Positions 16,911 through 48,313 of a stretch of 64,000 nt of DNA are shown in pieces; position 1 is the first letter of the stretch, and each line of letters starts with the position of its first letter. The translations under genes were made by a program, and so were the position numbers. The notes under the pieces were generated by a model. It saw nothing but the letters and a program-made list of their open reading frames with translations. It searched no databases and had not been told where the DNA came from. The stretch comes from Dehalogenimonas sp. W (GTDB lineage Bacteria; Chloroflexota; Dehalococcoidia; Dehalococcoidales; Dehalococcoidaceae). The stretch covers positions 806,001 to 870,000 of the forward strand of contig NZ_CP146612.1 in assembly GCF_037094495.1 (NCBI RefSeq), given 5' to 3'.

Positions 16911-16927
16911 CAGGAGGCTAAATCATT

Positions 16928-28611: not shown

Positions 28612-29142
28612 CTACTTCTTCATATGGCTAGGCCCAATTTCAGGGTAGAGGGTAAAAAGCGGATTCGCCCAAGATTTATCTGCGGCAATCCGCCCAACAA
28701 CGGTAAGGCGATAAAAAAGCCGTTCAGGAGCATCTGGATAATTCTCTTGAATCGAGGAATCCTCGCTTCTACCGGTCACTTCCACCCACCCCAACCGCTT
28801 CAACACCCCGAAATACATCAGGAACGAGTGGTACCGCATGTGCGTAAACTTCCGTGACACCTTTTTAAGCTGCTTCTGGTAGATTTCTTCGGCGAATTCC
28901 TCGGTGACATCCACGCCCCGGACCACCTGCTTGCTGATGATCCGCTCCGCGCGCTCCCTGGCGGTTGCCCTGGCCAGCGCCTCTTTGTATTCATAGTTGA
29001 TGTCCGCTTGGGGAGCGCCGCGCTCCGGATCTATCCGCGGCGCACCTTCCGGCCCGTTTCCTAGAAGAAACTCCCGGATAAACCAGCCGCAGCCAAACGG
29101 CCGGAGAAAACCGCCACTTTTCGGTCTCAGTTCCATCACCAT
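28612..29142 (-). CDS. Winged-helix-like hypothetical protein
   Basis: A 176-residue protein from ATG 29142 with GAGGTAG upstream; ATG 29136 is also possible. The second half (HSFLMYFGVLKRLGWVEVTG, then LFYRLTVVGRIAADK) reads as a winged helix with a wing after the recognition helix, while the middle is a charged helix (KEALARATARERAERIIS). It follows the ArdC-like gene by 9 bases and so ends the core operon before the cargo block. DNA binding is inferred. Confidence 0.5.
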   Translation of the reverse strand: MVMELRPKSGGFLRPFGCGWFIREFLLGNGPEGAPRIDPERGAPQADINYEYKEALARATARERAERIISKQVVRGVDVTEEFAEEIYQKQLKKVSRKFTHMRYHSFLMYFGVLKRLGWVEVTGRSEDSSIQENYPDAPERLFYRLTVVGRIAADKSWANPLFTLYPEIGPSHMKK

Positions 29143-29151: not shown

Positions 29152-30612
29152 TCAGGCCACCCCTACTGGCTTTTTCGCCAGGGATTCCATGCCCTCGATG
29201 ATTCTGGTGGTCACCTGGCGAATCGAGGCCAGATTTTTCTCCAGGACTTTCTTGTCTTGCGCCCATAGAGCGACATAGGGGAAGGATCTCGTTCCGGTAT
29301 CAAAACCAAAGTGAGCCCCGACAGCAAAGGCAGCACTTTCGGCAATCGTCTCGGCATCTCTCCTGGGGATGTGGAACACGCCTTCGGAGTAGTAATGCGC
29401 CACCTCATGAATCAGCGTTTTCAACTGCTGGGCGCGGGATTCTTCCGGCCGGACCCAGATTTCCTTGCCGGAAAAGTAGCCCTTGATCGCTGGATTCTGA
29501 TCCGGCCGGGAATCAAAGCCGACAGATACACCCTGAATCCTGACAAGGTGAAGAATGTTATCGAAGAGCTCCTCATTGGCTTCACCGGTAAGCACCGGCA
29601 CCTCGAATTCAGGTAGTGGTTTACCTTCGGTCTGGCTGACATCAAAAACATAGACCACCTTGAAGTAGATCGGGCGAATCATTTCGCGTTTCTCTTCCTC
29701 TTCGCGCTGTTCACCGGCTGGCTCAGTCATTTTGGCCGACTTCGACGGCATGCAAGGCGCTAGTATGGCGATCCCCTTTTCGCCCTTCTTCACCCAGCGG
29801 TAGAGGTCTTTCCAGGTGTTGAAACCGGCTACCCGGGTGGCGTCAGGCTTCTGCGCCGCGATCAGGATAAGGTTACCGATGCTGTAGTCATGGAATTTCG
29901 CCATGGTGAGCAGGAAATTTCGGAAATGCTCGCTACTCTGGATGCCTTCGACGCCTTCCTTGAGCTTCTTAAGCACCTCATCGATGCGGCGTTCCTTGGC
30001 TTCTGGTTCAATGGAGAAACTGTAATCCGGCACCGGCACGCCGACCCAGCTGACCATATCGTAGTTCCGGGGATAAACGATCTCGCATTTCGGTGACGTA
30101 ACGGCCGCCGCCGGTAAGAGTTCGGGATCAGGGTTCTCGAACACGGTGTCAGCCAGGTGTTGCGACAAGCCGACCATGACGGCGCCAGCAGCCAACAAGC
30201 CGCCGAATGACACGAACGTACTCGCCCAATCCAATTCTTGTGCCGGGATTTCCGCGATCGCCAGCCAGCTCACCGAGGCCATATCGCCCGCTTCGATACC
30301 TTCCAGCTCGCCGGAGTTGACCTCGATGAAGTAACGCGCAGGTGATGCCGAGGTCACCAGGTAGCCCTGCGGTACGTTACGGTAAATCTCGGTCACAGTG
30401 AACGATTCCGAAAGAAAGGCGATATCAAGCAAGAATAGCATCGGAGATGTGGTTACCTCAATGATTCGCGAAAAGCCGAGATCAAAAAACATCCCGGTCC
30501 GCGCCTCAAGCGCCGGCAAGCCGCCCAAGCCTTGCACCAACTCCCAAGGGGTGGCCGCCACCGTGGCGACCCACTCTTTATCTCGTATGGTAACGTACAC
30601 CTGTCCGGCCAT
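29152..30612 (-). CDS. DUF192 - membrane - ArdC-like zincin fusion
   Basis: A 486-residue fusion. Residues ~15-115 match DUF192: ARTGMFFDLGFS, SPMLFLLDIAFLSESFTVTE and FIEVNSGELEGIEAGD. A hydrophobic segment follows (SFGGLLAAGAVMVGLSQHL). Residues ~210-300 resemble the ssDNA-binding part of ArdC antirestriction proteins (KFHDYSIGNLILIAAQKP, RVAGFNTWKDLYRWVKKGEK). The C-terminus is a zincin peptidase with LIHEVAHYYSEG (HExxH). ArdC proteins protect incoming DNA from restriction; a DUF192-linked form is not one I know. The stop overlaps nothing; its start abuts the upstream gene (1 shared base). Confidence 0.7.
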   Translation of the reverse strand: MAGQVYVTIRDKEWVATVAATPWELVQGLGGLPALEARTGMFFDLGFSRIIEVTTSPMLFLLDIAFLSESFTVTEIYRNVPQGYLVTSASPARYFIEVNSGELEGIEAGDMASVSWLAIAEIPAQELDWASTFVSFGGLLAAGAVMVGLSQHLADTVFENPDPELLPAAAVTSPKCEIVYPRNYDMVSWVGVPVPDYSFSIEPEAKERRIDEVLKKLKEGVEGIQSSEHFRNFLLTMAKFHDYSIGNLILIAAQKPDATRVAGFNTWKDLYRWVKKGEKGIAILAPCMPSKSAKMTEPAGEQREEEEKREMIRPIYFKVVYVFDVSQTEGKPLPEFEVPVLTGEANEELFDNILHLVRIQGVSVGFDSRPDQNPAIKGYFSGKEIWVRPEESRAQQLKTLIHEVAHYYSEGVFHIPRRDAETIAESAAFAVGAHFGFDTGTRSFPYVALWAQDKKVLEKNLASIRQVTTRIIEGMESLAKKPVGVA

Positions 30613-30917
30613 TATCTCCTCCCCGGAATCCGTTTGATGCCGTTTCGCTTGCTTTCAAGGTCCAACTGCTTGTCCTCGAAGCCGGTGGTGCCGATGTCCG
30701 AACCGCCGAACATGGCCATGTCAAAGTTGCGATGCCACCTGGCCGAGGCCTTGAAATCGGTCTTCTCCTCGAACTTCTCGCCCCTTGTGCGCCGCGGCTT
30801 CATCCCGGGTGGGGCGATGGCTGCCAAGCCCTCAAGGTAAGACTCGCTGGTGGTGTCCTCGCGATAATTAATCGGGGCATTCACCCCAAATTCTTCATGG
30901 TTGGCATACCTGCCCAT
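30612..30917 (-). CDS. Paralogue of the 39.2-kb small gene, 101 aa
   Basis: A 101-residue protein. Its first ~40 residues (MGRYANHEEFGVNAPINY, then SESYLEGLAAIAPPGMK) align with the 70-aa product at 39034-39246 (MGKYASWSDLEKNVPVTY, then PESYRTGMNGIAPTGQK). The C-terminal half is basic and hydrophilic (RRTRGEKFEEKTDFKASARW). It overlaps the recombinase gene upstream by 23 bases. The two paralogues border the membrane/structural block. Function unknown. Confidence 0.6.
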   Translation of the reverse strand: MGRYANHEEFGVNAPINYREDTTSESYLEGLAAIAPPGMKPRRTRGEKFEEKTDFKASARWHRNFDMAMFGGSDIGTTGFEDKQLDLESKRNGIKRIPGRR

Positions 30918-31608
30918 CAGGTTTCCCTCCTTGCCATAGTTTTCGGTACCACTCCTTCTGCTCTTCTCCGGAGACTTTACGATACTTCATGGTGGTGATG
31001 ATGCTCTGATGCCCCAGGTGCTCCTGCAGTAGCCGGAGACCGTCACCCGAATCGTCATGCTTCACAGCATGCACGGCGAAAGCGTCGCGCAGCCGGTGGG
31101 GAGAGACGTTATGGGTCTTGCCGCTTTCGACGTTCACAAGGCGCGGTATTCCGGCGCGCTCGGCACAATCCCTGACGATTTGCCAGGCCCGGTTACGGCC
31201 AAGATCGAAGAGCATCTTTTCACCATTTCTGGCCACCGTGCCGCCGCGGCCGATGTATTCCTTGAGCAGACCGAGAGTGGTTTTATCCAGCGGCAGCGTC
31301 CGGAAACGGTGATGCTCCTTTTCCTGAGAAACCGCCTTCTCCACCTTCCGGCCGCACACCGGGCAAAACTTGTGCCCCTTGCCCAGCCTGGCGCCACATT
31401 CCGGACACAACAGCCGGATGCGTGACTTCAGGTGCTCGATGGTCACCGTGCCCCGACGAAAATCAAGGTCCTTCACCCTGACACCCAGCGCCTCGGATAC
31501 CCGGCAGCCCAGGTGAAAAAGCAGACGAATGAGCAGCCGGTCCCTGAGATACACAGCGGCGCCTTCCAGTCTCGCCACTTCGTCGAGTTCAAGGTAAGTC
31601 TTACCCAC
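30895..31608 (-). CDS. Xer-type tyrosine recombinase with inserted zinc ribbon
   Basis: A 237-residue catalytic domain from GTG 31608. The active-site set is present: R36 (GCRVSEAL), K61, H171 and R174 (SPHRLRDAF), H200 (LGHQS) and Y209 (TMKYRKV). Two CxxC knuckles (C68/C71 and C82/C85, CPECGARLG and CPVCGRKV) are inserted in the beta-hairpin right after K61. The N-terminal SAM-like arm-binding domain of Xer proteins is missing. It could act in multimer resolution or genome circularisation; the zinc ribbon may supply DNA binding. The start overlaps the preceding stop by one base. Confidence 0.75.
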   Translation of the reverse strand: MGKTYLELDEVARLEGAAVYLRDRLLIRLLFHLGCRVSEALGVRVKDLDFRRGTVTIEHLKSRIRLLCPECGARLGKGHKFCPVCGRKVEKAVSQEKEHHRFRTLPLDKTTLGLLKEYIGRGGTVARNGEKMLFDLGRNRAWQIVRDCAERAGIPRLVNVESGKTHNVSPHRLRDAFAVHAVKHDDSGDGLRLLQEHLGHQSIITTMKYRKVSGEEQKEWYRKLWQGGKPDGQVCQP

Positions 31609-32078
31609 TAGCTGGTCTCCTCACTCATTTGCTGCGTCATCGGCATGATGAGCCCCATCATCAAGAGCATCATCAGCATCGGCAGCATAGACGACAGCAT
31701 GTCGCCGCCTGAAGCATTGCCGGTGACGATGATGACGTTATCCTGTTCAGCCACGGCGTTAGTGTCCTCGATCCAGACCCGGAGGCCGTAGGAGCCGTTG
31801 TCGATGCCACCGCTCGACTTGGGCACCAGCAGGAAATCGACCGAGGCCGAGCCTTCGGTTGGTTCCGAACTTGCCGCAAGCGGCACATCCGCCTGGCCGA
31901 CGCAGGCGTTCACCAAGTGCTTGCCAAAGAGATTGGTCGAATAGGGTCCGGCCAGAAGCTTTACCGTTGTGTTCACGCCGATGACATATTTAAAGGCCAC
32001 CGTCACCCTGAGGGTATCCCCGGCGTTGAAAGTCCCCGGCGAAAGCGCCATCGGCGCAAAGGCGATATCGAGTACCAC
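31608..32078 (-). CDS. Beta-sandwich protein with Met-rich C-terminal membrane segment
   Basis: A 156-residue protein. The body has the GD-x-L-x-V-x-V-x-FKY pattern (NAGDTLRVTVAFKY) shared with the next two genes upstream, then strands such as GSYGLRVWIEDTNAVAE. The C-terminus is MLPMLMMLLMMGLIMPMTQQ, a short methionine-dominated hydrophobic helix, followed by an acidic end. There is no signal peptide. It is likely a membrane-anchored surface or virion component. Last of the putative structural genes before the recombinase. Confidence 0.55.
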   Translation of the reverse strand: MVLDIAFAPMALSPGTFNAGDTLRVTVAFKYVIGVNTTVKLLAGPYSTNLFGKHLVNACVGQADVPLAASSEPTEGSASVDFLLVPKSSGGIDNGSYGLRVWIEDTNAVAEQDNVIIVTGNASGGDMLSSMLPMLMMLLMMGLIMPMTQQMSEETS

Positions 32079-32087
32079 CTGCCCCTC

Positions 32088-32690
32088 CTATACCTTGGCG
32101 AAGTCCGAAATCTTGAATTCGGTGATCGTCGGCTGGCTGCCGGCGATAACGAGGGCGTTCTCGTAGCCGAAGAGATAGTTGGTCGTCGCCTGACCGCCGA
32201 TGCTCGGACTGCCGCCAAAAATCTTGACGTAGATGTCATCCCAGTTGGTGCCGACGTTGGATGGAATGGTGAAGATATAGGAATTGGTGACATTCGGGTA
32301 CGACGGCGGTGTCGTTATCTGCGGGATACTAAAGGTGGTCTGTTGCACCAATTTTTCGTCGAAACCGAACATCCCGTTCGTGCCGATGCAGTAGTACCCG
32401 GTAACGCCGGTAACCGCCGGACCGGTGTACTTGAAAGAGATGCTCACCATCAGGCGGTCCCCCGGAGCCACCGCCACCTGCTTCGGCGCCGGATTCATGT
32501 AACTGAGCGGGATATAAACGCCGCCGGCCGCGGTGAAGAATTTTCCCGCCACCGGATCATAGAAAATGTGCTGGCCGGTGGCCGGATCGACATACCAGCC
32601 GGGCGCTACCGGGTCTTCAGCCAGGGCGATAGCGCCATTACCTTGCGCCGCAAAAGGCTTGAGTTCCAGATTGAGTGTTTTGAAAGCCAT
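32088..32690 (-). CDS. Beta-sandwich structural-type protein, 200 aa
   Basis: A 200-residue protein. An N-terminal segment resembles a short Trp/Tyr/Gly/Pro repeat (GWYVDPATGQHIFYDPVAGK, FTAAGGVYIPLS). A sandwich-like middle follows (APGDRLMVSISFKYTGPA). The final 13 residues (TITEFKISDFAKV) match the end of the next protein (PIISDFRIADFIKV). The family is unknown. The composition (Gly, Thr, Ser, Tyr; no Cys clusters) suits an extracellular or virion protein. Upstream spacing is 9 bases. Confidence 0.5.
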   Translation of the reverse strand: MAFKTLNLELKPFAAQGNGAIALAEDPVAPGWYVDPATGQHIFYDPVAGKFFTAAGGVYIPLSYMNPAPKQVAVAPGDRLMVSISFKYTGPAVTGVTGYYCIGTNGMFGFDEKLVQQTTFSIPQITTPPSYPNVTNSYIFTIPSNVGTNWDDIYVKIFGGSPSIGGQATTNYLFGYENALVIAGSQPTITEFKISDFAKV

Positions 32691-32699
32691 TTGTTCCTC

Positions 32700-33086
32700 C
32701 TATACCTTGATGAAATCCGCAATGCGGAAGTCCGAAATTATGGGCTGGCCACTTGAACCCAGATTGACCGTTTTAGCCATCTCGTCGTCGGCGTACCACC
32801 CTCCGTCAGCACCGTACCAAAAACTCTTGGCGCGAACGGTCACCTTCTGGCTGGGCATGTAGAAATAACCGGAAAATGGCCAGACCGCCTGCGCGTCGAT
32901 ATTGGCCCAGTCGGTCGGAAAGATGACTCCCGGTTGCGGGGAAACGCCGTAATCGAGCGCCGCTTCGACCCTGACGCCGATGGGCGCGGAATAGGTGTTT
33001 TTGACCCGGACGGTGATGTCCACCCGGCCGCCCGAAACAGCTTCCGATGGGGCAATGATCTCAATAATATCGGCATACTGCGCCAT
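32700..33086 (-). CDS. Beta-sandwich structural-type protein, 128 aa
   Basis: A 128-residue protein. The sequence SGGRVDITVRVKNTYSAPIG followed by VEAALDYG is typical of CARDB/Ig-like sandwich domains. It is a shorter paralogue of the 200-aa protein next to it, sharing the C-terminal ending (ISDFRIADFIKV) and the GR-x-D-I-x-V motif. The stop codon region (CTCCTATACCTT on the plus strand) is identical in both genes, indicating recent duplication of the ends. No signal peptide. Confidence 0.5.
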   Translation of the reverse strand: MAQYADIIEIIAPSEAVSGGRVDITVRVKNTYSAPIGVRVEAALDYGVSPQPGVIFPTDWANIDAQAVWPFSGYFYMPSQKVTVRAKSFWYGADGGWYADDEMAKTVNLGSSGQPIISDFRIADFIKV

Positions 33087-33395
33087 CTAGCCCTCCGGGT
33101 CATCCTTTCCAGAACTCTCCGCCAACGGGAAGCTGCCGTTGCCGAAATTGCCCGCCAGGCGGTTGCCGATGACGTCCACTCCGGCACCGCCCAGGAAGGC
33201 GTAGAAGATGCTTGCGATGTTCACCTGTCCGGTTGAGTCAACGCTGAGCGACAGGATCACACTAGCCAGGACGGTGCGGATCATCGACCCGCCGAACTTG
33301 CGGATGTTAAAGGTCTCGCCGCTTTCCAGCCAGCCCAGGAGCGCGGCGATAAAACCGCCAAATAAAGCTGCTAGGGCGATGTAAATTCTTTCCAT
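33087..33395 (-). CDS. Membrane protein, 102 aa, holin-like size
   Basis: A 102-residue protein. An N-terminal transmembrane helix (IYIALAALFGGFIAALLGWL) and a second hydrophobic stretch (GSMIRTVLASVILSLSV) flank a short loop; a third weak segment (IASIFYAFLGGAGVDVIGN) follows, and the tail is charged. The size and topology resemble holins or phage 'r1t/LL-H-type' membrane proteins, but I cannot assign one. The stop is adjacent to the next start, with no spacing. Confidence 0.5.
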   Translation of the reverse strand: MERIYIALAALFGGFIAALLGWLESGETFNIRKFGGSMIRTVLASVILSLSVDSTGQVNIASIFYAFLGGAGVDVIGNRLAGNFGNGSFPLAESSGKDDPEG

Positions 33396-33400
33396 AGTGG

Positions 33401-33592
33401 TTATTCCCTCCTTCGGGTGACGCAGATGAACTTGCCCCAGATGACGCCGCCCATAGCCACCAGACAGCTACCGGTGGTGGTCACCACCAGACCGAAATCG
33501 ACTTTGGTGGCCAGTTCGATGCCGATACCTATACCGATCGTCGCAATGCCGACGAGCTCAATAACAATGGCCGCCATCATTCCCTTGTTCAT
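33401..33592 (-). CDS. Small two-helix membrane protein, 63 aa
   Basis: A 63-residue protein consisting of two transmembrane helices (AAIVIELVGIATIGIGIGIE and GLVVTTTGSCLVAMGGVIWG) and a basic C-terminus (CVTRRRE). It is immediately after the subtilase gene and 5 bases before the next membrane gene. It may be a pore, holin or virion membrane protein; function unknown. Confidence 0.5.
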   Translation of the reverse strand: MNKGMMAAIVIELVGIATIGIGIGIELATKVDFGLVVTTTGSCLVAMGGVIWGKFICVTRRRE

Positions 33593-34849
33593 TTAATTCG
33601 CTCCCATCACTCCGGCCATCAGCATCATGGCCGTCATCATTTGCATCATATCCGCCGTCTGAGTCGAAGGTGAGCTACCCGATGTCACCTGCCCGAGCAT
33701 GGCACCCATGGCCGGCAGCCCGTAGCCGTAGGCGTTGTCCTTGTTTAGGGGGGCATCCTGCGGCTTGGTGGAAAAATACGGCGCCACGTCCCTGGCCAGC
33801 GTCCAGCGGTACTGCCAAGCTTCACCATAAGCCCGGCGTCCGCTTTCCCACAGAAGCCCGGTGAGTCCCGCCAGCATTGGCGCGGCGAAGCTCGTCCCCG
33901 ATTTAACCACATACCCATCGTCATTCTTGTCCGACGCCATCTCAAGGTTCGTCCCCCAGATAACGAAATCCGGCTTGGTCTCGCCCTGTACCGTGGGCCC
34001 GCGGGAGGATTTCTCCCAGACGGCAAGCTCGCCATGCGTTTCTATGGCGCCGACAGCAACCACCTCCGGCTCGCAGGCCGGCAGCATCATCGTCGTCATT
34101 TTTGGTCCGGTATTGCCCGCCGCGGCGATCACGTCCAGTCCGTATTCGATACTGGCCGCCCGGCAGGCGGCGCGCACCGGATTGTCGGGATCGCCGTCAT
34201 CCTCACCGCCGAGCGAGAGATTTATCACGTTGGGATACAGCTCATCGGCAGGAAAAAGACCTGACGTGCGGGCCTGCTCGGCCAGATCACATACCCGGTC
34301 GATGCCGAGCACGATAGCCTCATCCGTGGCGATACCCTCGTCGCCGATGACCTTGATATTCATAATCGAAGCGCCGGGCGAAACGCCGGAGTTGCCGCCG
34401 AGGGCGTGCATGCCGCCAGCGATTACGAAAGCTACCTGGGTGCCGTGGCCGTAAACGTCCGACGCCGTGGGCGATCCGGTAAAATTGGCCTCATAGACCA
34501 CCTTGCCCTGCAGCGACTGGTGCGTCTTGCGGACACCGCTGTCCAAGACGGCTACCGTAAGACCGGTGCCCATGATCGGCGGGTTAAAATAGCTTCGGAG
34601 CAAATAGAAGACGTCGGATATACTTTCCACTACCGGAGTCTGGGTGACCACCTGGCTCGTGCTGTACTGCCTGAGAGCTTTGAGCGCAATCCCGGGAATG
34701 GCCGACAACCTGTCAACTTGCGCCTGGTCGAGTTCGCAAAACACCTGGCCGATCAGGCTGGCTTTCCGGATGTTCCGGGCGCCAATCTTCCTGGCCTCGG
34801 CTTCGAGCCGGTCGATCGATAAATCTTTAGAGATGAGGGCGTAGCGCAT
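33593..34849 (-). CDS. S8 subtilisin-like serine protease, leaderless
   Basis: A 418-residue protease. The catalytic triad is intact: D103 (VAVLDSGVRKTH), H135 (YGHGTQVA) and S320 (KSGTSFAAPM), with oxyanion N246 (AAGNTG). The first ~70 residues look like an I9-type propeptide, and there is no signal peptide, so the enzyme acts inside the cell or in an assembling particle. The C-terminus after SGSSPSTQTA is DMMQMMTAMMLMAGVMGAN, a methionine-rich tail like those of its neighbours. Prohead-type maturation is one reading; phage-block subtilases are uncommon. Its stop abuts the next start. Confidence 0.8.
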   Translation of the reverse strand: MRYALISKDLSIDRLEAEARKIGARNIRKASLIGQVFCELDQAQVDRLSAIPGIALKALRQYSTSQVVTQTPVVESISDVFYLLRSYFNPPIMGTGLTVAVLDSGVRKTHQSLQGKVVYEANFTGSPTASDVYGHGTQVAFVIAGGMHALGGNSGVSPGASIMNIKVIGDEGIATDEAIVLGIDRVCDLAEQARTSGLFPADELYPNVINLSLGGEDDGDPDNPVRAACRAASIEYGLDVIAAAGNTGPKMTTMMLPACEPEVVAVGAIETHGELAVWEKSSRGPTVQGETKPDFVIWGTNLEMASDKNDDGYVVKSGTSFAAPMLAGLTGLLWESGRRAYGEAWQYRWTLARDVAPYFSTKPQDAPLNKDNAYGYGLPAMGAMLGQVTSGSSPSTQTADMMQMMTAMMLMAGVMGAN

Positions 34850-34858
34850 ATCTTCTCC

Positions 34859-35614
34859 TTATGCAGGGTAGGCGAGCTGAATGGTATAGGTCACCTTGAG
34901 TTGACCCGTGTTGGGCACGGTGACCGTGGATGCCAGGACATCGCGCGAGAACATGACGCTACCGGTTCCGGCCGAGCTAAACTTGACTCTGCCGTACAGG
35001 GCGACCTCGTTGATCCCGATTTCAGCACCGGAGTTGTTGTTGATATAACGGATCAAGGTGTCGGTGAGCGTTTTCGTTGGCGCGTCGTAGTTCAAAGAAT
35101 GAAGGTCCGACTGGGCATAGTCCATCTGCCCAGCGCCCGAGCCATTGGGGATTTCAGCGCCCAAAACGTGGCCTTCGAAAGATTCGGGAAAAGCGTTGGT
35201 GCCAAGTATGATGCCCTTCGTGGTAACACCCGGATCGGAGAGAAAGCCTGTAGAGGCGGACCGCTCGTTAACGTTGATGGCTTCATCCCAACCGGCGACC
35301 AGTTTAAAACCCCATCCCGAGCCGTTTGGATAGATATTGCCATTGGTCCACCGAAGTGAAATCGCTCCGGCTTCGAATAAATTAGTCCCCGTGAGGCCAT
35401 AAGCGTTCATCTGGGAAAAGAGGAAGTTATAGGCATTTCGGTTCCAGGAATGGCTTCGTTGCCGGTGCGAGTGGATGATATCGCCATCTCCGTTTCGGAC
35501 CTCCATCCCCAGGAATGTCCGGAAAACCGGTAGCTTCAGCTCGGTGCCCAACTTTTCAAAGCGACGATATTTACTCTCCAGTTTTGGATCTTCGGTATAA
35601 TTCTCTTCTTGCAT
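34859..35614 (-). CDS. Putative surface/spike protein, 251 aa
   Basis: A 251-residue protein. After a charged N-terminus come RTFLGMEVRNGDGDII, Trp/Asn-rich segments (NRNAYNFLFSQMNAYG), and a C-terminal part (GINEVALYGRVKFSSAG, then RDVLASTVTVPNTGQLKVTY) that resembles the ends of many phage tail and baseplate-associated hypotheticals. No membrane helix is seen. It is likely an exposed structural protein. RBS: AGGAGAAG-type sequence just upstream. Confidence 0.45.
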   Translation of the reverse strand: MQEENYTEDPKLESKYRRFEKLGTELKLPVFRTFLGMEVRNGDGDIIHSHRQRSHSWNRNAYNFLFSQMNAYGLTGTNLFEAGAISLRWTNGNIYPNGSGWGFKLVAGWDEAINVNERSASTGFLSDPGVTTKGIILGTNAFPESFEGHVLGAEIPNGSGAGQMDYAQSDLHSLNYDAPTKTLTDTLIRYINNNSGAEIGINEVALYGRVKFSSAGTGSVMFSRDVLASTVTVPNTGQLKVTYTIQLAYPA

Positions 35615-35627
35615 CGATGTCTCCTTC

Positions 35628-36131
35628 TTATACTAGTTGTGCTGTCACTCCGATGCCGGGCATCGGAATAGTTTCCGACAAAGATTCTGCCGCGCTCGTA
35701 TCGTGCTCGACGCCTGTGGCAACAGAAATCCCCGGCGCCGAAATAGTGCGAGCCGCCCCGGTTGCAAAGCCGCCGCCAGAGTGATCTTCGGCGGTGGCGA
35801 TACCCACGGAAGGCCTCGGCATTGAAAGAAGCGGCGGGTCAGCAACCCGGTTCACCGCGCCTGTCATATAGGCGATGAGTTCCTGGATATCCAGCCAGCC
35901 CGGGCGGCCTACCCCCTGATTAAGCGCCTTGAGGACGTTGTAGCCGGTGCCGTAGTTCAAAGGCAGTCGCTCGAACACGTTCTGGCCCCGGTAAATGATG
36001 TCGCCTGGCTGCATCAAGGCATCGATTCCGCCCAGGTTACGGATACACCTGGACTGCCAGTCTTTGTCGGTATCTATCTCAATTTCCGACAGCTTGGTCG
36101 CTCCCGACTTCGCTCTTAAAAGAAGACTCAT
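35628..36131 (-). CDS. Hypothetical protein with C-terminal PxxGI repeats
   Basis: A 167-residue protein. The N-terminal ~85 residues hold phage-like sequence (LSEIEIDTDKDWQSRCIRN, GDIIYRGQNVFERLPL). The C-terminal ~65 residues repeat a P-x-x-x-G-I/V-x-x-A-T theme about every 25 residues: RPSVGIATA, SAPGISVATG, MPGIGVTAQ, separated by Gly/Ser/Thr-rich spacers. That layout suits a fibre or linker. The family is not recognised. It abuts its neighbours on both sides. Confidence 0.45.
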   Translation of the reverse strand: MSLLLRAKSGATKLSEIEIDTDKDWQSRCIRNLGGIDALMQPGDIIYRGQNVFERLPLNYGTGYNVLKALNQGVGRPGWLDIQELIAYMTGAVNRVADPPLLSMPRPSVGIATAEDHSGGGFATGAARTISAPGISVATGVEHDTSAAESLSETIPMPGIGVTAQLV

Positions 36132-36602
36132 CTACATCGCCTCCAGCATGAAGTCGTAGTCGACCGACTTGCCGTTGTCGGCCGGGTCGTTGCTCTTGAT
36201 CGTCACCCGCAGCGGATCGTGGATCGCCCAGGTGCCGTTGACCACCGGCAGGCCCGGTGGGTCCGCCGCGGCGTCAAAAGACTGCTCATAGACCTTGCGC
36301 TCGGCACCGTTGATCTTCTTATAGAGCCTGACCGTCACCTGACTGCCGGAGAGGTTGTGGACGGCGATACTAAAGTCATGCAACTTGTACCTGGCGCCGG
36401 GAGCACCGGCCATTACCAAATTGCTTTCCGCTGTCTGCCAGTCGGCAACAGCCGAACCCTCGAACGGGCTCTCACCGGACAACTTGTCGGTCTGGCCTTT
36501 TACCGCTTCCAGTCTGGATTCGAGTCCGGCAATGGCCGACTCGATCGCCGTGAGGCTGGTCCTGGCTTTACCACCTTCGACGTAGAACTCACCCGGCATC
36601 AT
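36132..36602 (-). CDS. Coiled-coil plus beta-domain protein, 156 aa
   Basis: A 156-residue protein. Residues ~14-45 form a coiled coil (LTAIESAIAGLESRLEAVKG). The rest is beta-rich (RYKLHDFSIAVHNLSGSQVT, VRLYKKINGAERKVYEQSF, and a final SVDYDFMLEAM). Coiled-coil plus sandwich suggests an oligomeric structural component. It overlaps the upstream gene by 4 bases (ATGA-type), so the translation is coupled. Confidence 0.45.
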   Translation of the reverse strand: MMPGEFYVEGGKARTSLTAIESAIAGLESRLEAVKGQTDKLSGESPFEGSAVADWQTAESNLVMAGAPGARYKLHDFSIAVHNLSGSQVTVRLYKKINGAERKVYEQSFDAAADPPGLPVVNGTWAIHDPLRVTIKSNDPADNGKSVDYDFMLEAM

Positions 36603-37165
36603 TCACCTCTCCCCACCGGCAGCTGCTTCAGAGATTTTCCTGCCGAATCGATCCGCTTGGTCTCTTCTTTTTTAGGCTTTAGAGCCGAAGCCACGATACC
36701 CACCATCAAGATCGGCAGCATCATGCCGAGAAGCAGGCTCCAGTCGAAGCCCGAAGAGCCACTGTTCCCCGGCGCGCCCGGCCAGGCCGGCGGCAGCACC
36801 GAACTGCTTGGCGCCACCAGCATGGTGGCCACCGAATCCACCACCTCACCGCTTTCTTTCTCATAAAGGAGCACCGTCAGCACCGCGTTCGTCTCGGTAA
36901 AGCGCAATGACCCTTTCAGCTGAACCAGATCCCCCGGCTTGGCTTTGAACCAGGCGTAGCCGGCAACCGGCAGCGCTTCCTCACTGATCTGTTGGCCGTC
37001 CCGCGAAAGCCGGGCGATGAGCGCGTATTCCTGCTCGCTCCCGCTGGGATTGGCCGCGTAAACAGACAGGCCAAGGTCGTAGCCGGGAGAGTAGTAAAGC
37101 CATGGCGGCAGATCCCAGAAAATGTCGCCCAGCGCGCTGCCCATCACCGACAAGGCTGGACTCAT
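36599..37165 (-). CDS. Beta-sandwich protein with C-terminal membrane anchor
   Basis: A 188-residue protein. A sandwich domain (PGYDLGLSVYAANPSGSEQE, WFKAKPGDLVQLKGSLRF) is followed by a proline/serine linker and a transmembrane segment with methionines (SLLLGMMLPILMVGIVASAL), then a basic stop-transfer tail (KPKKEETKR). The orientation suggests an exposed sandwich with a C-terminal anchor. It starts inside the stop of the 58-aa gene (ATGA). Likely surface or virion protein. Confidence 0.5.
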   Translation of the reverse strand: MSPALSVMGSALGDIFWDLPPWLYYSPGYDLGLSVYAANPSGSEQEYALIARLSRDGQQISEEALPVAGYAWFKAKPGDLVQLKGSLRFTETNAVLTVLLYEKESGEVVDSVATMLVAPSSSVLPPAWPGAPGNSGSSGFDWSLLLGMMLPILMVGIVASALKPKKEETKRIDSAGKSLKQLPVGRGE

Positions 37166-37338
37166 AGCGGGAACTCCACGTCTTCGCCCTTGAGGGCTTT
37201 TCTGACCAGTGACAGCGCCCAGGCGCTCATGGCGATCATCATGGCGAAGCCGATAATGCCCGAAAACACCGCCTGCCAGAACAGCGGCTGATAGCTTTCG
37301 GGGTAGTAACCCCGGTATTCTTCAGGGTAATGGTTCAT
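37162..37338 (-). CDS. Small single-pass membrane protein, 58 aa
   Basis: ATG 37338 to TGA 37162 encodes 58 residues: a Tyr/Glu-rich N-terminus (MNHYPEEYRGYYPESYQ) and one transmembrane helix (AVFSGIIGFAMMIAMSAWAL), then a basic end (VRKALKGEDVEF). Both its start and its stop overlap neighbouring genes by 4 bases (ATGA), which makes it a convincing gene despite its size. Function unknown; likely a structural or pore component. Confidence 0.65.
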   Translation of the reverse strand: MNHYPEEYRGYYPESYQPLFWQAVFSGIIGFAMMIAMSAWALSLVRKALKGEDVEFPL

Positions 37339-37835
37339 GGTGATGCCTCTTTAAGCTTTTTGGGCTTGTCCGGCGCGGTCAGCGGCTTCATCACCTGCAT
37401 CAGCACGAACATGACCAGTAGCATCATGCCCATGTTGAGAAGGGTGGATATAAGGCTTTTCACTTCCTCGGGTATCAGCCACCAAACAAGCGTGCCGACC
37501 AGCGGCGGCAGGGCGATAAAGCCGATGATCCCAGCGATGACCGGCAGCCAGGCCGCGCCTTTCTGCCAGGCGAGATAAACGGCAGGTTGGCCGGGATCCG
37601 CGTAAACGATGTATTCGTAACCCGGCCAGTGCTCGACGCCGGCATCCTCAAAAGCCTGCTCCAGCCGGGTAAGCGCCTCAGCCGAGGGAACTGCCTCGAA
37701 ATCTAGCCGGGTCAAGAAAAGAGCACCCTCGTCGGCGCTTTCCTCAAGCGGGGCGAAGGTGCTCATTCCCTCGATACTGTCAGTCTGGCCTACAAGGATT
37801 GCCCGGTAGCCTGGCGGCGCCATCGCATAGGGCAT
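37335..37835 (-). CDS. Two-helix membrane protein with Met-rich helix
   Basis: A 166-residue protein. A soluble N-terminal domain (SADEGALFLTRLDFEAVPS, ALTRLEQAFEDAGVEHW) precedes two transmembrane helices near residues 95-115 and 130-150; the second (LNMGMMLLVMFVLMQVM) is methionine-rich like those of neighbouring genes. A basic tail (KPKKLKEA) ends it. The stop overlaps the next start. Probably part of the same membrane-bound assembly. Confidence 0.5.
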   Translation of the reverse strand: MPYAMAPPGYRAILVGQTDSIEGMSTFAPLEESADEGALFLTRLDFEAVPSAEALTRLEQAFEDAGVEHWPGYEYIVYADPGQPAVYLAWQKGAAWLPVIAGIIGFIALPPLVGTLVWWLIPEEVKSLISTLLNMGMMLLVMFVLMQVMKPLTAPDKPKKLKEASP

Positions 37836-37852
37836 AGTTTCCCTCCCTATGC

Positions 37853-38440
37853 TTAAACCAGGCGTCGTGCCTTACGGCCGAAGGGATTCAGGGTCACCTT
37901 GCGGTCGGCTGTCGCGCCGCCAGCGGCGGTCACCGTGGCCACCAGCGTCAGCTTGTCGCCACCAACCAGCCTGAGATCGGCCCCCAGTTGCCCGGCCGCG
38001 CCCAGATCATAGTCTTCGTCGTTTCCGGCCGCCTGATCGGTGCCGAGGTACTTCTTATCGACGGTATCCGCCTTGGGGAACTTCGAGACGCGGATATTGC
38101 CTGACACCTCGGCTTCGGTTATGAGGTTGAGGCGGTTAAGGTACCATACCTCTCCCGCCGGCACTTCAAGCTCCGCGGTTTTGACCACGTCCTGGGCGCT
38201 CAGGTCGGGGATGGTAACTTCAACCTTGTCGCGCTCATCGATGCGGTCCTCGGTTTGCAGAACCTCAGCGGAAAGGAGTGCCTCTCTGAGCACCTGAAGC
38301 GGCAACCCCATCCAGTAGCCCGATTCGTTGTCGTAAACACCGAGCAGCGACAACGACTGACCGAGCGGCGGCACCCAGCCCTTCGGAGGCCGCGTACCGG
38401 GATAGCCCGGGAGTTGCTGCGGAATGATCTCTTTTGTCAT
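37853..38440 (-). CDS. Candidate major structural protein, 195 aa
   Basis: A 195-residue protein. An N-terminal Pro/Gly segment (GYPGTRPPKGWVPPLGQ) leads into a mixed domain ending with a long beta region (LEVPAGEVWYLNRLNLIT, VSGNIRVSKFPKADTVDKK, GADLRLVGGDKLTLVATVTA) and a basic tail (RKARRLV). The length, lack of cysteine and beta content would suit a capsid or coat protein, but I see no diagnostic fold. It is the first large gene after the two Met-rich small genes. The assignment is a guess from position and composition. Confidence 0.4.
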   Translation of the reverse strand: MTKEIIPQQLPGYPGTRPPKGWVPPLGQSLSLLGVYDNESGYWMGLPLQVLREALLSAEVLQTEDRIDERDKVEVTIPDLSAQDVVKTAELEVPAGEVWYLNRLNLITEAEVSGNIRVSKFPKADTVDKKYLGTDQAAGNDEDYDLGAAGQLGADLRLVGGDKLTLVATVTAAGGATADRKVTLNPFGRKARRLV

Positions 38441-38471
38441 GAGTTTTTCTCCTCCTGTTCGCTGGAATCGC

Positions 38472-38651
38472 CTAGGACTTGCCGGTGATGCCCTTCATCA
38501 TCGGCATCATGATGGCCATCATCATCACCATCATGATCATCGGCATCATCGCCGAGAACATGCTCGACATGTCGTTGGTCTGCTGCGGATAGTAGCCGCC
38601 GACGGTGCCGTACTGATACTGCTGGGGACGGGCCTGCTGTGTTACGTACAT
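38472..38651 (-). CDS. Small methionine-rich membrane protein, 59 aa
   Basis: ATG 38651 to TAG 38472 encodes 59 residues. A Gln/Tyr-rich N-terminus (YVTQQARPQQYQYGTVGGYY) is followed by MFSAMMPMIMMVMMMAIM, a transmembrane helix that is more than half methionine, and a lysine-containing end (MKGITGKS). The helix is almost identical to that of the neighbouring gene at 38688-38891 at protein and DNA level, so the two are tandem paralogues. Such composition is rare; a packed or metal-related membrane role is conceivable but unproven. Confidence 0.65.
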   Translation of the reverse strand: MYVTQQARPQQYQYGTVGGYYPQQTNDMSSMFSAMMPMIMMVMMMAIMMPMMKGITGKS

Positions 38652-38687
38652 GTTTTAATTTCCTCCTGGTTCTATTCCTTTTTTGAA

Positions 38688-38891
38688 TCAGTCTTTGGAC
38701 GTGACGCCCTTCATCATCGGCATGATGATAGCCATCATCATCACCATCATGATCATCGGCATCATGGCGCTGAACATCCCCGAAAAGGGATCTTCAGTTT
38801 GGGTCGGATAGTAGGCGCCCGGCCCGCTTACCTGCATCGGGTTATACTGCCCCGGCGCCACCGGCCCGCTGATTTGCTGTGAAGTGAACAT
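38688..38891 (-). CDS. Small methionine-rich membrane protein, 67 aa
   Basis: The start is ATG 38891, directly behind GGAGGAAACC; the longer frame has no such site. The 67-residue product has a polar N-terminus with Pro, Gly and Tyr (ISGPVAPGQYNPMQVSG) and the helix MFSAMMPMIMMVMMMAII, ending MKGVTSKD. It is a paralogue of the 59-aa gene downstream. Both have no signal peptide and would insert as single-pass or hairpin membrane proteins. Probably abundant structural membrane proteins. Confidence 0.65.
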   Translation of the reverse strand: MFTSQQISGPVAPGQYNPMQVSGPGAYYPTQTEDPFSGMFSAMMPMIMMVMMMAIIMPMMKGVTSKD

Positions 38892-39033: not shown

Positions 39034-39246
39034 CTACTCGAACATGGCGCGCTTGTAGCCGCTCACCATGACCGGGCCCTTGCCGTCAACGCCGTCGCGA
39101 TAGTGGTTTACCCGGCCTTCCTTCACCTTTTGACCGGTCGGCGCGATGCCGTTCATGCCGGTGCGGTAGGATTCAGGGGTTGCCTTCTCTTGGTAGGTGA
39201 CGGGGACATTTTTCTCCAGGTCAGACCAGCTTGCGTACTTACCCAT
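39034..39246 (-). CDS. Small protein, paralogue of the 30.6-kb gene
   Basis: A 70-residue, hydrophilic protein. Residues 1-38 (MGKYASWSDLEKNVPVTY, PESYRTGMNGIAPTGQK) resemble those of the 101-aa product at 30612-30917, and the C-terminus is short and basic (VSGYKRAMFE). It is the first gene of the putative structural operon; AGGAGG-type sequence precedes it. The ~140 bases between it and the Met-rich gene contain only a small GC hairpin. Function unknown. Confidence 0.55.
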   Translation of the reverse strand: MGKYASWSDLEKNVPVTYQEKATPESYRTGMNGIAPTGQKVKEGRVNHYRDGVDGKGPVMVSGYKRAMFE

Positions 39247-39552: not shown

Positions 39553-40668
39553 CTATTCGACCAGCTGGCGTTCTAGAAAGTATCGGTCAACCCACTCTTC
39601 ATAAACTTCACCAAAATCTAACCCAACAGTCCTATAAAAACCAATTAAAAAATGGTTTCCATCGGTCATATATCGAAATATGTCTGTAAACAAGTAATCC
39701 CCATAACGACTGGATAGGTATTCGACGAATTCATAGGAGGTACTATATAGTTGAGATGCTCGCATAGATTCTGATGGGCTTCCATAAACAAGGAAGTTCT
39801 TGATGTCGTGGGTGTTCACGGATGACATCATCAGGTCAAGTCGTAAAAAAATTCGCTCTGGGAACCGCTGAAACCCTTTAAGACTGTCTTTGACAGCTAA
39901 GCCTTCATAAATACCTCGTGGAAACATCTCAATAGCAGCAGCCCCGAGCGTTTCATAGATAACCAGGTGGGAGATTTCATGACTTGGGGTTGGAGTCGTT
40001 ATATTGGATTTCATCGAATCCCTTGCTTTTTCAGCAACAAGAAATAGCAAGGGTGATCCGTCATTCAACACGCTGAATGCACCATGAGCGTCGTTTTGTC
40101 CAGTATCCGATCGAAAATCAACAATGTTCGGATATAAATAAATGGTAATGCGATCATAAGTATTAGATGGTTTGTATTGTTTTCTAAGACGTTCAATTTC
40201 CTCTTGAAGAATTACTAACGTTGACCTGACACTCTCAACAGGAATTTCCCCTCTTAAAACAATCTCGAATTGTTTTTCAGCTCTTGCCAGAAGTGCTTCG
40301 GGCTTAATATGATCCTTGTAAATCCAAACCGAGGCCAGCATAAGGAGAAAAAAAGCCAAAAACACCAAAATGACTTTATTTTGCTTATTGTTGGCAGGTT
40401 TGCTAGCAGGACGATATCGAGACAAGTTTTTAAAAAAATTTTGGGTGAAAAATCCAGCCAGCACCAAAATGGCGAAGGCGGTAAAAGTTAATAAGATTGG
40501 ATTCGCAATTTGACGGGGAAATAACATTTCAAGGTAGATGGCTCCGCACAGTAGCGTCAAAATTACGCAAAAAAAGAGAAGGAGAGTGAACTTGGCGATA
40601 AAGCTAAACACGGTTTGCAAAACCGGCCAAGTAGACAATATCTGCTTCATGTCTTCTAATCTTAGCAT
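39553..40668 (-). CDS. Membrane-anchored HExxH peptidase (MA-like)
   Basis: A protein of ~371 residues from ATG 40668 (ATG 40650 is possible). Three transmembrane helices occupy the first ~130 residues. The remainder resembles 'peptidase MA-like' domains: TPSHEISHLVIYETLG (HExxH) and, ~20 residues later, RGIYEGLAVKDS with the third zinc ligand Glu. The catalytic domain should face outside. The AT-rich base composition and opposite-strand neighbour at 40772 mark this as an inserted pair (a 'moron') interrupting the structural region. Confidence 0.6.
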   Translation of the reverse strand: MLRLEDMKQILSTWPVLQTVFSFIAKFTLLLFFCVILTLLCGAIYLEMLFPRQIANPILLTFTAFAILVLAGFFTQNFFKNLSRYRPASKPANNKQNKVILVFLAFFLLMLASVWIYKDHIKPEALLARAEKQFEIVLRGEIPVESVRSTLVILQEEIERLRKQYKPSNTYDRITIYLYPNIVDFRSDTGQNDAHGAFSVLNDGSPLLFLVAEKARDSMKSNITTPTPSHEISHLVIYETLGAAAIEMFPRGIYEGLAVKDSLKGFQRFPERIFLRLDLMMSSVNTHDIKNFLVYGSPSESMRASQLYSTSYEFVEYLSSRYGDYLFTDIFRYMTDGNHFLIGFYRTVGLDFGEVYEEWVDRYFLERQLVE

Positions 40669-40771
40669 ATAAAATTGAGGGCTAACCACGTGATACGATG
40701 ACCTTGATGTTTGATACCAGGCAAATTATTATTACATCGCAACTTAATCTATCTGGCGAGGGAGTTAATTC

Positions 40772-41141: not shown

Positions 41142-41369
41142 TTATTCTTCGAACATCGCCGCCTGCCAGTTCCGCCACTTCTTATCCTGGGCTTCAGCGT
41201 ACTTCCGAACCGCTTTTTCCGCCCATCTTTTTTGCAGCAAAGCCAAAGCCTCGCTGCTTAACTGGCGAGTATTCGCCGGAGGATTTACCTCCTCCGGCGG
41301 GTTGTGGATCTCGTAATCAGCCCTCAGAAGAGCTGCCATAGCCAACATGGCGAAATACTTATTCCACAT
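41142..41369 (-). CDS. Small hypothetical protein, 75 aa
   Basis: ATG 41369 is chosen because it overlaps the preceding stop by 11 bases; the frame extends further but loses homology-like character. The 75-residue product (MWNKYFAMLAMAALLRADYE, then a charged helix AVRKYAEAQDKKWRNWQ) has one short hydrophobic segment. No family recognised. Confidence 0.45.
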   Translation of the reverse strand: MWNKYFAMLAMAALLRADYEIHNPPEEVNPPANTRQLSSEALALLQKRWAEKAVRKYAEAQDKKWRNWQAAMFEE

Positions 41370-41604
41370 TGACGATCTTGCCCTTGATGCCGAACATGGT
41401 AGAAAAGCCCCAGGCCAGCTGATCACAAAGCTGGTCCACCGGCTCGCCCAGGTCGAGACTGTCTTTAGGGTTTAGAAGGTAAAACCTTACTTCGAGCCGG
41501 CCTTCTTTTCGGTGCTTGGTTATCTCCATGCCCATGTGTTGACCAACCTCTTGCGCCTGCTCCATTTGCTGCCGGCTGATGCCTGCCATACCCGGATTAA
41601 ACAT
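41359..41604 (-). CDS. Hypothetical protein, 81 aa
   Basis: An 81-residue protein with an N-terminal Met/Gln helix (SRQQMEQAQEVGQHMGMEI) and a C-terminal beta segment (RLEVRFYLLNPKDSLDLG). Its start (ATG 41604) shares one base with the stop of the zinc-finger gene. Function unknown; it belongs to the operon that begins at the tandem repeats near 42480. Confidence 0.5.
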   Translation of the reverse strand: MFNPGMAGISRQQMEQAQEVGQHMGMEITKHRKEGRLEVRFYLLNPKDSLDLGEPVDQLCDQLAWGFSTMFGIKGKIVNVE

Positions 41605-42389
41605 TACGCGCCTCCTTTCTTTTGCTCTGTCTCCCAGCCTTCAGGTATTTTTCCGCCGCCCCGGCCGGGAACCATCTGTTGTTCCATCATGCCCCACATC
41701 ATGTCCATCACCTTATCGACCCGCTTGGCATAGGCTTCATCGACCGTCTTCGGCGGCGGTCCCTTGGGCAACTTCTCCTCGATGTAGCCCAACACACCGC
41801 CAACCGCCTCCTGGGCCGCTTCCCTGGCCATCTCTAAACTCGCACCCCTGGCTCTTACCGCCGCGGCATCGAGTTCCTCGCGCGAAGCATTGAGCACCCT
41901 GAGTAGCGGCTCAAATCGCTTAGCCTCCGCTTCGGCTTCCGTCTTCTGGATGTTGGCCAGCTCCATTACCAGTAGCATCGATGCCCGGAGTTTCATCATA
42001 CCCCGCAGCTCGCATTGTTCTTCATAGCTGTCGCCCATGTAACGGCGTAAAACGGCCTCGGGGGAAATGACTTCGCTCTGTTTATAGGTCGCCGGCAGGC
42101 TGCTCGGTTGGGTATCGGCCGCCGGCGTCATCTTGGCTATCTCTTGCCTAACCGTCCTGTCCTTGAAGTGAAGCTGTTTTGTGAGCTGTTCAAAGCTGTA
42201 ACCCTTACCCAGATATTCCCTGATTTCGGCGGCGATGCTCTCGTCATCCTTTTCGCCTTCCGCCTGTTCAGGAACATCACCCTCAGCATTAGACGGTTCA
42301 ATATTTTTCGCCGGGTGGGCGCCCGACGTATGCCCGCCGAGCGCCTTGATCGACTTAAACTCTCTCCCGCAAATCTTGCATGTGTACAT
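41604..42389 (-). CDS. C2H2 zinc-finger protein with KALGGH motif
   Basis: A 261-residue protein. Residues 1-26 form a classical C2H2 finger (YTCKICGREF, then KALGGHTSGAH). The KALGGH core is close to the QALGGH of plant EPF-type fingers. After an acidic linker comes a region that could be a helix-turn-helix (REYLGKGYSFEQLTKQLHF), then a long charged helical part to the C-terminus (EAEAEAKRFEPLLRVLNAS). It probably binds DNA and oligomerises. Being first gene after the repeats at 42474, it may regulate its own operon. Confidence 0.65.
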   Translation of the reverse strand: MYTCKICGREFKSIKALGGHTSGAHPAKNIEPSNAEGDVPEQAEGEKDDESIAAEIREYLGKGYSFEQLTKQLHFKDRTVRQEIAKMTPAADTQPSSLPATYKQSEVISPEAVLRRYMGDSYEEQCELRGMMKLRASMLLVMELANIQKTEAEAEAKRFEPLLRVLNASREELDAAAVRARGASLEMAREAAQEAVGGVLGYIEEKLPKGPPPKTVDEAYAKRVDKVMDMMWGMMEQQMVPGRGGGKIPEGWETEQKKGGA

Positions 42390-42473
42390 TTTCTACCTCC
42401 CCGGACTCGCCTCGTTCCTGTTTAAGGATTAATCGAACAGCCTGTGGAACGTACAGGCCACGACTACAGTGTA

Positions 42474-42508
42474 AATACCCGCTGTAGATACCCGTCTGTG
42501 AATACCCG
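42474..42508. promoter_or_regulatory. Three tandem iteron-like repeats
   Basis: ATACCCG occurs three times at spacing 13-14 bases (AATACCCG 42474, GATACCCG 42487, AATACCCG 42501), each preceded by TGTA/TGTR-like bases, giving a 13-14-base unit. An inverted repeat CCTGT...ACAGG (near 42441) lies beside it. The site sits in the 180-base gap upstream of the zinc-finger operon, so it is probably a regulator or initiator binding site. Confidence 0.55.
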
Positions 42509-42569
42509 AAAAAAACTTAAACACTATTCCCCCCTTGCCTCAGGGGTCACCCCCCTCCCCGATTGACTT

Positions 42570-43487
42570 TCACCCTGATCCGATTAACAACGCGATAGCT
42601 TTTTCTACCCCAAGTTGAGGCGCAAGTCTTGCCACCCGGATGGCATCCCGGACATTCTGGGTGAGCCCGTCCAGACGGCGGGCGATTTCCCCAGCCAGCT
42701 CCTGGTCGAGGCCTTCGGAGCGCACCAACACACCTCTCACCACCGTTAGAAACTCGGCCCTCCCATAGGGATCGAGCTTTCGAATGGCAAAGCGTGACCG
42801 TAGTTCCGGCGACAGTTTTTCGCAACGGTTGGAGGCGGCGATGACTCTGAGGGGGTTGTTGATATCGAGTTCACGGCCCCTTTTAGCCCGCACCAACCGT
42901 CCGCCTTCCATCATGGTCAGCAGCGCCGCGGTATCGGCGGCGTTCATTTTGTCGATCTCGTCTATAAGCAGAATCTGCGGTTCCCGCCCGGCCACCAGGT
43001 CCCACAGCCCGGCCTTTGAAGTCGCCGAACCGACCAGCCAGATAGCCTTTTCGCCTCCGGCTCTTTCGATGTCCCACAGAAAAAGCGTTTTGGCCAGCGC
43101 CGGTGGCCCGGTCAGCAGCACATGCACCGGCTTTTCTGCCAGAAGTGCCGCCCTGAGAAGCTCTTTCACGCCGTCATGGCCGATGATGTCCCCGAAAAGA
43201 GTGTCGGATATCTCTGGTTTTAATTCCTGGCGCGTTTCAGGAGGCGTAATTTCAGCCGAAAGAACGCTTTTGCCCAGTTCGCTCAACCGGTAGCCGGTAT
43301 GGGAGTTGGATCGAAAGACATTATCAAGGTATCCATCCTTGAACAGCCGGGACAGCGTCGCCGGCCAAATCCTGACATGGCGCCATCCCCAGCCGATGCG
43401 ATAGTCGTTCTCCATATCCACCGAGTCTTCAAACCGGGCGATTTCCGAAAGCAGTTCGATGACATCATCGTTTTTCACTTTTACCAC
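42570..43487 (-). CDS. AAA+ ATPase with N-terminal winged helix
   Basis: A 305-residue protein. Residues ~1-80 look like a winged helix. The AAA+ core has LLTGPPALAKT (127-134 is GPPALAKT; MoxR/MCM-type proteins have GPPGTAKT), Walker B ILLIDEIDK (172-180), sensor-1 VIAASNRCEKL and arginine-finger region LRSRFAIRKL. The C-terminal lid follows (ARRLDGLTQNVRDAIRVAR). It belongs to the MoxR/RuvB-like group, acting as a motor or chaperone. It precedes the J-domain gene by a 7-base overlap, so they are co-translated. The exact target is unknown. Confidence 0.75.
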   Translation of the reverse strand: MVKVKNDDVIELLSEIARFEDSVDMENDYRIGWGWRHVRIWPATLSRLFKDGYLDNVFRSNSHTGYRLSELGKSVLSAEITPPETRQELKPEISDTLFGDIIGHDGVKELLRAALLAEKPVHVLLTGPPALAKTLFLWDIERAGGEKAIWLVGSATSKAGLWDLVAGREPQILLIDEIDKMNAADTAALLTMMEGGRLVRAKRGRELDINNPLRVIAASNRCEKLSPELRSRFAIRKLDPYGRAEFLTVVRGVLVRSEGLDQELAGEIARRLDGLTQNVRDAIRVARLAPQLGVEKAIALLIGSG

Positions 43488-43840: not shown

Positions 43841-43842
43841 GT

Positions 43843-48211: not shown

Positions 48212-48266
48212 GGGCTATATGTCACTTCTATCGGAATAAACTTGCCAAATCCTTGCTTAAAAAGTG

Positions 48267-48295: not shown

Positions 48296-48313
48296 TGTGA
48301 ACAAGGAGGGGCT

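Follow-up and report, generated by a model that had tools for sequence, protein, structure and literature searches.

Why would one operon in a Dehalogenimonas genome place the same kind of hydrophobic tail, crowded with methionine (Met), on several unrelated proteins? The question arises in a 64,000-nucleotide stretch of Dehalogenimonas sp. W (contig NZ_CP146612.1, positions 806,001 to 870,000), hereafter the window. Six minus-strand open reading frames (ORFs) within 31608-38891 carry hydrophobic C-terminal segments dominated by Met. Their operon, here called the late operon, lies within an integrated mobile element of ~22 kb (~28.6-51.3 kb of the window; Table 1, where proteins can be found by their first coordinate). 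In our reading, the Met-tail proteins belong to the virion, or to the membrane on which it is assembled, of a virus that is temperate, tailless and membrane-containing, and the tail is a shared anchor or sorting signal; we put the probability of this reading at roughly one half.

A sequence-only reading of the window had pointed to two tandem small proteins with a Met-dominated segment, and both were confirmed as ORFs. Their segment, MFSAMMPMIMMVMMMAI(I/M)MPMMKG, holds 10 (sp1) and 11 (sp2) Met in 19 residues. The tails it had described on four larger proteins were recovered as well. The 31608 protein contains MLSSMLPMLMMLLMMGLIMPM (8 Met in 19 residues), the 36599 and 37335 proteins contain LLLGMMLPILMVGIV and LLNMGMMLLVMFVLMQVM and are only moderately Met-rich (3 and 5 in 19), and the subtilase ends, after ~395 residues, in the short tail ADMMQMMTAMMLMAGVMGAN. 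The ATG/ATC repeat noted at the DNA level is placed at 38486-38538 by Tandem Repeats Finder. For comparison, Met makes up 3.5% of the host transmembrane (TM)-like segments in the window, with a maximum of 2 per 21 residues, and 3.0% of those in flanking loci; at the host frequency, at least 10 Met in 21 residues have p < 1e-9. The sp1 ORF was listed from GTG 39005, yet its start is most likely ATG 38891, because orthologues conserve that position.

Octanol-scale hydropathy classes five of the six segments as transmembrane (-9.7 to -11.9 kcal/mol for a 19-residue stretch). The proposed family of Met-rich membrane segments stands as a family across different proteins, but not all of its members are clear membrane helices. 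The tails could instead lie within a protein shell and serve there as hydrophobic helices for packing or cargo loading, a common tail loading the subtilase and others. In favour of this, the tail of the subtilase is short and borderline as a TM segment, and Met-rich C-terminal tails are also seen in tailed phages, which lack a membrane. The other five segments, however, score as 19-residue helices of strong hydrophobicity flanked by charges, and the late proteins include two more that are ordinary membrane proteins; we give this explanation little credence.

Two simpler explanations were rejected. The segments lie at the C-terminus in all six window proteins, and are therefore not leader or signal peptides. 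A simple ATG repeat or slippage is contradicted by synonymous sites, which vary while orthologues keep the protein, and by the Ser and Ala codons of the segment, which differ between sp1 and sp2.

The Met tails are kept in all copies, down to distant relatives, and the concern that they might be missing from related elements found no support, as they were present in every one examined. When 30 small proteins from across the class were aligned, M59 and K61 occurred in 30 of 30, and Met-majority columns were on average 83% conserved, compared with 65% for I/L/V/F columns. Pairwise comparisons of the sp1 Met tail gave a nonsynonymous divergence (dN) of 0.03 and a synonymous divergence (dS) of 0.3-0.5; for the N-terminal part, dN was 0.05 against the closest copy and 0.22-0.24 against the four that have diverged further. 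Judged from these alignments, the Met-rich tails are under purifying selection. The anchor is also modular, because it recurs in relatives on proteins without a BLAST match to window proteins (L136:18945-19373 and L137:9187-9657). The DUF192 protein of a further relative, L138, ends in a hydrophobic tail of moderate Met content; this homologue of the 29152 protein consists only of DUF192 and that tail.

A related end was also seen on an ORF that lies in no recognisable element. This ORF (L038:7848-8276, minus strand; 142 aa), adjoining toxin-antitoxin-like genes, ends in GMFNAMMPMVMMVLVFSILTPMLKGM, which is ~45% identical to the C-terminal part of sp1. It is perhaps a remnant or a captured anchor.

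As for the choice of residue, the flexible, polarizable side chain of Met may allow helices of different proteins to pack together. Metal binding or a fine-tuned hydrophobicity may be other reasons. The strongly conserved Met positions would favour helix-helix contacts, although this is speculation.

Met-rich composition alone is not unique, and the earlier suggestion that no known virion or secretion protein has such a signature was too strong. Similar segments occur in uncharacterised large T4-like phage proteins (L052:137-1084, L053:6922-7641, L064:8652-9353 and L088:3314-4030) and in probable tape-measure proteins (L043, L083 and L084). The T4-like proteins combine a conserved N-terminal domain with long Met-rich C-terminal runs, are without a PHROG, and have relatives in Vibrio and Rhizobium phages of ~150-207 kb, such as the Vibrio phage phiKT1024 relative of L064. 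In both groups the likeness lies in C-terminal or internal runs such as MMPMVMMMNMMKG, whereas the N-terminal domains are others and the setting is that of tailed phages; the composition is similar, not homologous. What is unusual in the present element is that one tail recurs on five or six of the late proteins in a single operon, and this class-wide. To our knowledge, a Met-rich helix serving as a virion-membrane sorting code, as proposed here, is known in no other virus. A literature search, with subscription papers mostly outside its reach, returned nothing relevant on Met-rich transmembrane virion proteins or on tailless proviruses of Dehalococcoidia.

The mobile nature of the element is evident from its genes and its surroundings. 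The large serine recombinase has the Pfam domains Resolvase, Recombinase and Zn ribbon (E 5e-33, 1e-22 and 4e-13). In two genomes of the same genus without a detected copy, nucleotide homology covers the neighbouring genes and ends exactly at 51222, the tRNA-Ala 3' end, which by this comparison is the integration boundary. The second junction was not found, with no 16-base repeat of the tRNA region within the window and no usable match to the left flank of the element-free genomes within 84 kb; conserved gene content extends down to 28612 in most copies. Other copies adjoin tRNA-Ile, -Val, -Asp or a Phe-Leu-Gln-Asn cluster, and up to three occur per genome. Within the genus, syntenic orthologous operons are present in the genome of the window and in four others of the eight searched. 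Beyond the genus, they occur in one more genus of the same family and, more widely in the order and class, in several further families. All named records with the element belong to Dehalococcoidia, Dehalococcoidales or Chloroflexi.

Which kind of mobile element is it? A tailed prophage (Caudoviricetes) was rejected, as the element proteins had no match to terminase large subunit, portal or HK97-type capsid in Pfam or PHROGs. Scans of sp1/sp2 and the late proteins against PHROGs, Pfam and NCBIfam gave nothing convincing besides the subtilase, the sp proteins and 37853 had no sequence match in the PDB, and INPHARED held no relatives of 34859 and 37853, the two late proteins tested. Searching IMG/VR for the Met pattern returned 47 stretches, nearly all by chance or unrelated; only UViG_2540341061 carries the element. 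Some kind of particle is nevertheless supported by three observations. The 34859 and 35628 proteins have relatives in the phage-like contig L022, the positions homologous to 36132 in L136 and L089 hold coiled-coil (fibre-like) proteins, and the 76.5 kb element-carrying contig is listed as viral by IMG/VR. 34859 is a possible host-attachment protein, and the 676 aa protein of L022 was read as tail-hub-like.

A non-viral integrative element could also modify the host envelope, for example by a surface appendage or an exclusion or DNA-transfer apparatus, with its machinery fixed in the cytoplasmic membrane by the Met-rich anchors. No capsid or packaging gene was recognised by sequence among the element proteins, the ArdC domain is common in conjugative elements, and the curated model nearest to the subtilase, although far below its cut-off, is mycosin (MycP), a membrane-anchored protease of type VII secretion. 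We nonetheless consider this unlikely. Hallmarks of integrative and conjugative elements (relaxase, type IV coupling or secretion proteins) were absent among the element proteins scanned in Pfam, the regulation is of the lysogeny type, and attachment-like proteins are held in common with the phage-like contig. The likeness to mycosin consists of the subtilase fold and a C-terminal hydrophobic segment. Mycosins carry signal peptides, whereas the subtilase of the element has no evident one, its tail is short and Met-rich, and no type VII secretion genes were seen. If ArdC sits on a viral membrane, it could, speculatively, enter together with the DNA.

A hint at a shell comes from the predicted structure of 37853. 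AlphaFold2 modelled a sandwich over residues 60-195, with a predicted local distance difference test (pLDDT) score mostly of 70-90 within the domain. The top structural match was the satellite panicum mosaic virus capsid (Z 7.6, root mean square deviation 3.3 A, 117 aligned), and further viral matches were the KHP30/KHP40 phage cement proteins (Z 7.2), HHIV-2 (6.4), SPV1 (5.9) and HCIV-1 (5.5). HHIV-2 and HCIV-1 are internal-membrane viruses. For this single candidate, sphaerolipovirus chains reached Z 5.5-6.4, all below 8. A Z score below 8 reflects a common arrangement, and for that reason the model suggests, rather than establishes, that 37853 is a candidate capsid or cement protein. The Ig-like domain of 36599 was predicted with pLDDT above 90 and matched Spo0M (Z 11.9); the Met-rich helix after its linker was predicted at low confidence.

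If the element is a temperate, tailless, membrane-containing virus, it would integrate at tRNA genes via its serine recombinase, be kept quiet by the HTH/ImmA pair, and be excised with the help of the Gp3-like factor. Induction would lead to expression of the late operon, with sp1 and sp2 probably as abundant products. These two, together with 36599, 31608, 37335 and the subtilase, would gather on one patch of the cytoplasmic membrane via the shared Met-rich helix or tail. No obvious N-terminal signal was seen in the sequences of the Met-tail proteins, and their soluble domains should therefore remain on the cytoplasmic side, where the jelly-roll protein 37853 could form or cap a shell. The subtilase, anchored alongside, would serve in particle maturation or at entry into the host. 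In internal-membrane viruses, assembly takes place at the cytoplasmic face of a membrane that finally lies within the shell. Cytoplasmic domains fit this type of assembly (phages with internal membranes are reviewed in PMC6356626) better than spikes exported before budding, and a membrane-containing tailless virus is therefore favoured. The mobile element, its conserved operon, the hydrophobicity, conservation and selection of the tails, and the lack of recognisable tailed-phage genes are shown by the sequence data, whereas the particle, its lipid, the part played by 37853, sorting by the tail and a specific need for Met are inferred.

Budding release, as in plasmaviruses, pleolipoviruses and spindle-shaped viruses, would instead be expected from an enveloped or pleomorphic virus, or a virus-encoded DNA vesicle, without a capsid shell. 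Here, sp1 and sp2 would be the main membrane matrix proteins and the Ig-like proteins the spikes. Tandem small single-TM paralogues are likely major membrane proteins, the Ig-like protein and others are anchored at the C-terminus, no packaging ATPase was recognised among the element proteins, and Dehalococcoides is known to lack peptidoglycan. External spikes, however, need export, and the candidate spike proteins have no obvious N-terminal signal; the operon also includes the jelly-roll-like protein. We therefore judge this alternative to be rather doubtful. The archaeal spindle-shaped and pleomorphic viruses and the Plasmaviridae resemble the element in their small tandem hydrophobic paralogues, likely the main structural components, and in host integration. 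Unlike them, the element has a bacterial host, an intracellular-type subtilase and a jelly-roll-like protein, and no homologue was found.

Several points weigh against a membrane-containing tailless virus. No capsid protein was matched by sequence, and no FtsK/A32-type packaging ATPase was recognised among the element proteins; the single canonical Walker A motif lies in the primase-like 44303, and the AAA protein 42570 resembles RuvB/MCM. The jelly-roll model of 37853 is only moderate (mean pLDDT 69.5 overall, Z at most 7.6), and it also matches non-viral sandwiches, e.g. PHM (Z 7.5). The subtilase tail lies below the octanol-scale TM cut-off. The flanks of the Met-rich segments leave the topology ambiguous, several being basic on the C-terminal side and others acidic. 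In the distant members L137 and L138, some Met are swapped for other hydrophobic residues; because these replacements are conservative, Met in the tail seems to be preferred, not essential. No expression or particle data for the element were found.

Serine-recombinase prophages and membrane-containing tailless viruses are both known kinds, yet no tested virus family matches the element. Close in outline are the single jelly-roll internal-membrane viruses (Singelaviria) of the families Sphaerolipoviridae, Simuloviridae and Matsushitaviridae (e.g. HHIV-2, HCIV-1, P23-77), with a similar genome size, a tailless gene content and a jelly-roll-like protein accompanied by several small membrane proteins. 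Temperate Simuloviridae genomes have 16-19 kb (PMC12642351), compared with ~22 kb for the element. The element differs from these families in having no capsid sequence match, one jelly-roll candidate found, no recognised FtsK/A32-type ATPase, and integration by a serine recombinase. We tentatively propose, as a bolder idea held with less conviction, that the elements represent a virus family not yet described, possibly a deeper lineage: temperate, tailless viruses of Dehalococcoidia that contain a membrane and sort their virion proteins to it by a common Met-rich C-terminal helix.

Dehalococcoidia include organohalide-respiring, pollutant-dechlorinating bacteria that are used in groundwater clean-up. 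According to the citation of Waller et al. 2012 in PMC3462421, the described Dehalococcoidia phage is Siphoviridae-like. A second, tailless and class-wide virus type would, if true, alter the view of gene transfer in these slow-growing bacteria with streamlined genomes. An anchor rich in one residue and common to unrelated proteins is a candidate sorting signal for the virion membrane that can be tested directly, and it would offer a clean marker to find such viruses in metagenomes.

Table 1. Features of the integrated element, in window coordinates.
Feature	Position	Strand	Remarks
Conserved 176 aa protein	28612-29142	-	Shared by most copies
DUF192-TM-ArdC protein	29152-30612	-	Shared by most copies; TM predicted
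Tyrosine recombinase-family protein with zinc-ribbon insertion	30895-31608	-	
Met-tail protein	31608-32078	-	156 aa; soluble N-domain, Met-rich C-terminal segment
Late protein	32088-32690	-	200 aa; highly conserved
Late protein	32700-33086	-	128 aa; kept in most copies
Membrane protein	33087-33395	-	102 aa
Small protein	33401-33592	-	63 aa; two predicted TM segments; holin-like in shape only
Subtilase (Peptidase_S8)	33593-34849	-	No evident signal peptide; Met-rich C-terminal tail
Late protein	34859-35614	-	251 aa; 41% identical to protein of phage-like IMG/VR contig L022
Late protein	35628-36131	-	167 aa; homologous to part of 676 aa phage protein in L022
Late protein	36132-36602	-	156 aa
Ig-like protein	36599-37165	-	188 aa; Ig-like sandwich, Pro-rich linker, Met-rich helix 142-161, basic tail
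Two-helix protein	37335-37835	-	166 aa; two C-terminal hydrophobic helices, second Met-rich; basic tail
Late protein	37853-38440	-	195 aa, no TM; predicted single jelly-roll-like sandwich, residues 60-195
sp2	38471-38651	-	59 aa; tandem paralogue of sp1, Met-rich segment nearly identical
sp1	38688-38891	-	67 aa; Pro/Gln/Tyr-rich N-part, Met-rich C-terminal segment, basic tail; strong Shine-Dalgarno upstream
Hydrophilic protein	39034-39246	-	70 aa; 78-91% identical in most copies; paralogue at 30612-30917
Conserved block	41142-43900	-	94 aa, 81 aa, C2H2 zinc-finger (41604), RuvB/MCM-like AAA ATPase (42570), DnaJ-domain protein (43481)
DUF3854 primase-like protein	44303-46603	-	Walker A motif
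Gp3-like recombination directionality factor	46605-47708	-	E 1.2e-50
HTH regulator and ImmA/IrrE-like M78 peptidase	48242-49644	+	
Large serine recombinase	49654-51312	+	3' end overlaps tRNA-Ala
tRNA-Ala	51222-51297	-	

The late operon is flanked by the paralogous small hydrophilic proteins 30612-30917 and 39034-39246 (both on the minus strand). Few proteins of the element are as conserved as the latter, for which family-profile scans gave no convincing match. The tyrosine recombinase-family protein closes the operon, although the element also encodes a serine recombinase. A membrane protein inside the element (39553-40689, minus strand), with a weak Peptidase_MA_2 match, occurs only in the window and in L026 and is probably cargo. 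Elsewhere in the window, a Type III restriction-modification locus (5232-18085, plus strand) encodes a methyltransferase (10984-12894), a restriction enzyme (13932-16910), a DrmD-like SNF2 helicase (6244-9129) and PDC-type candidate defence proteins.

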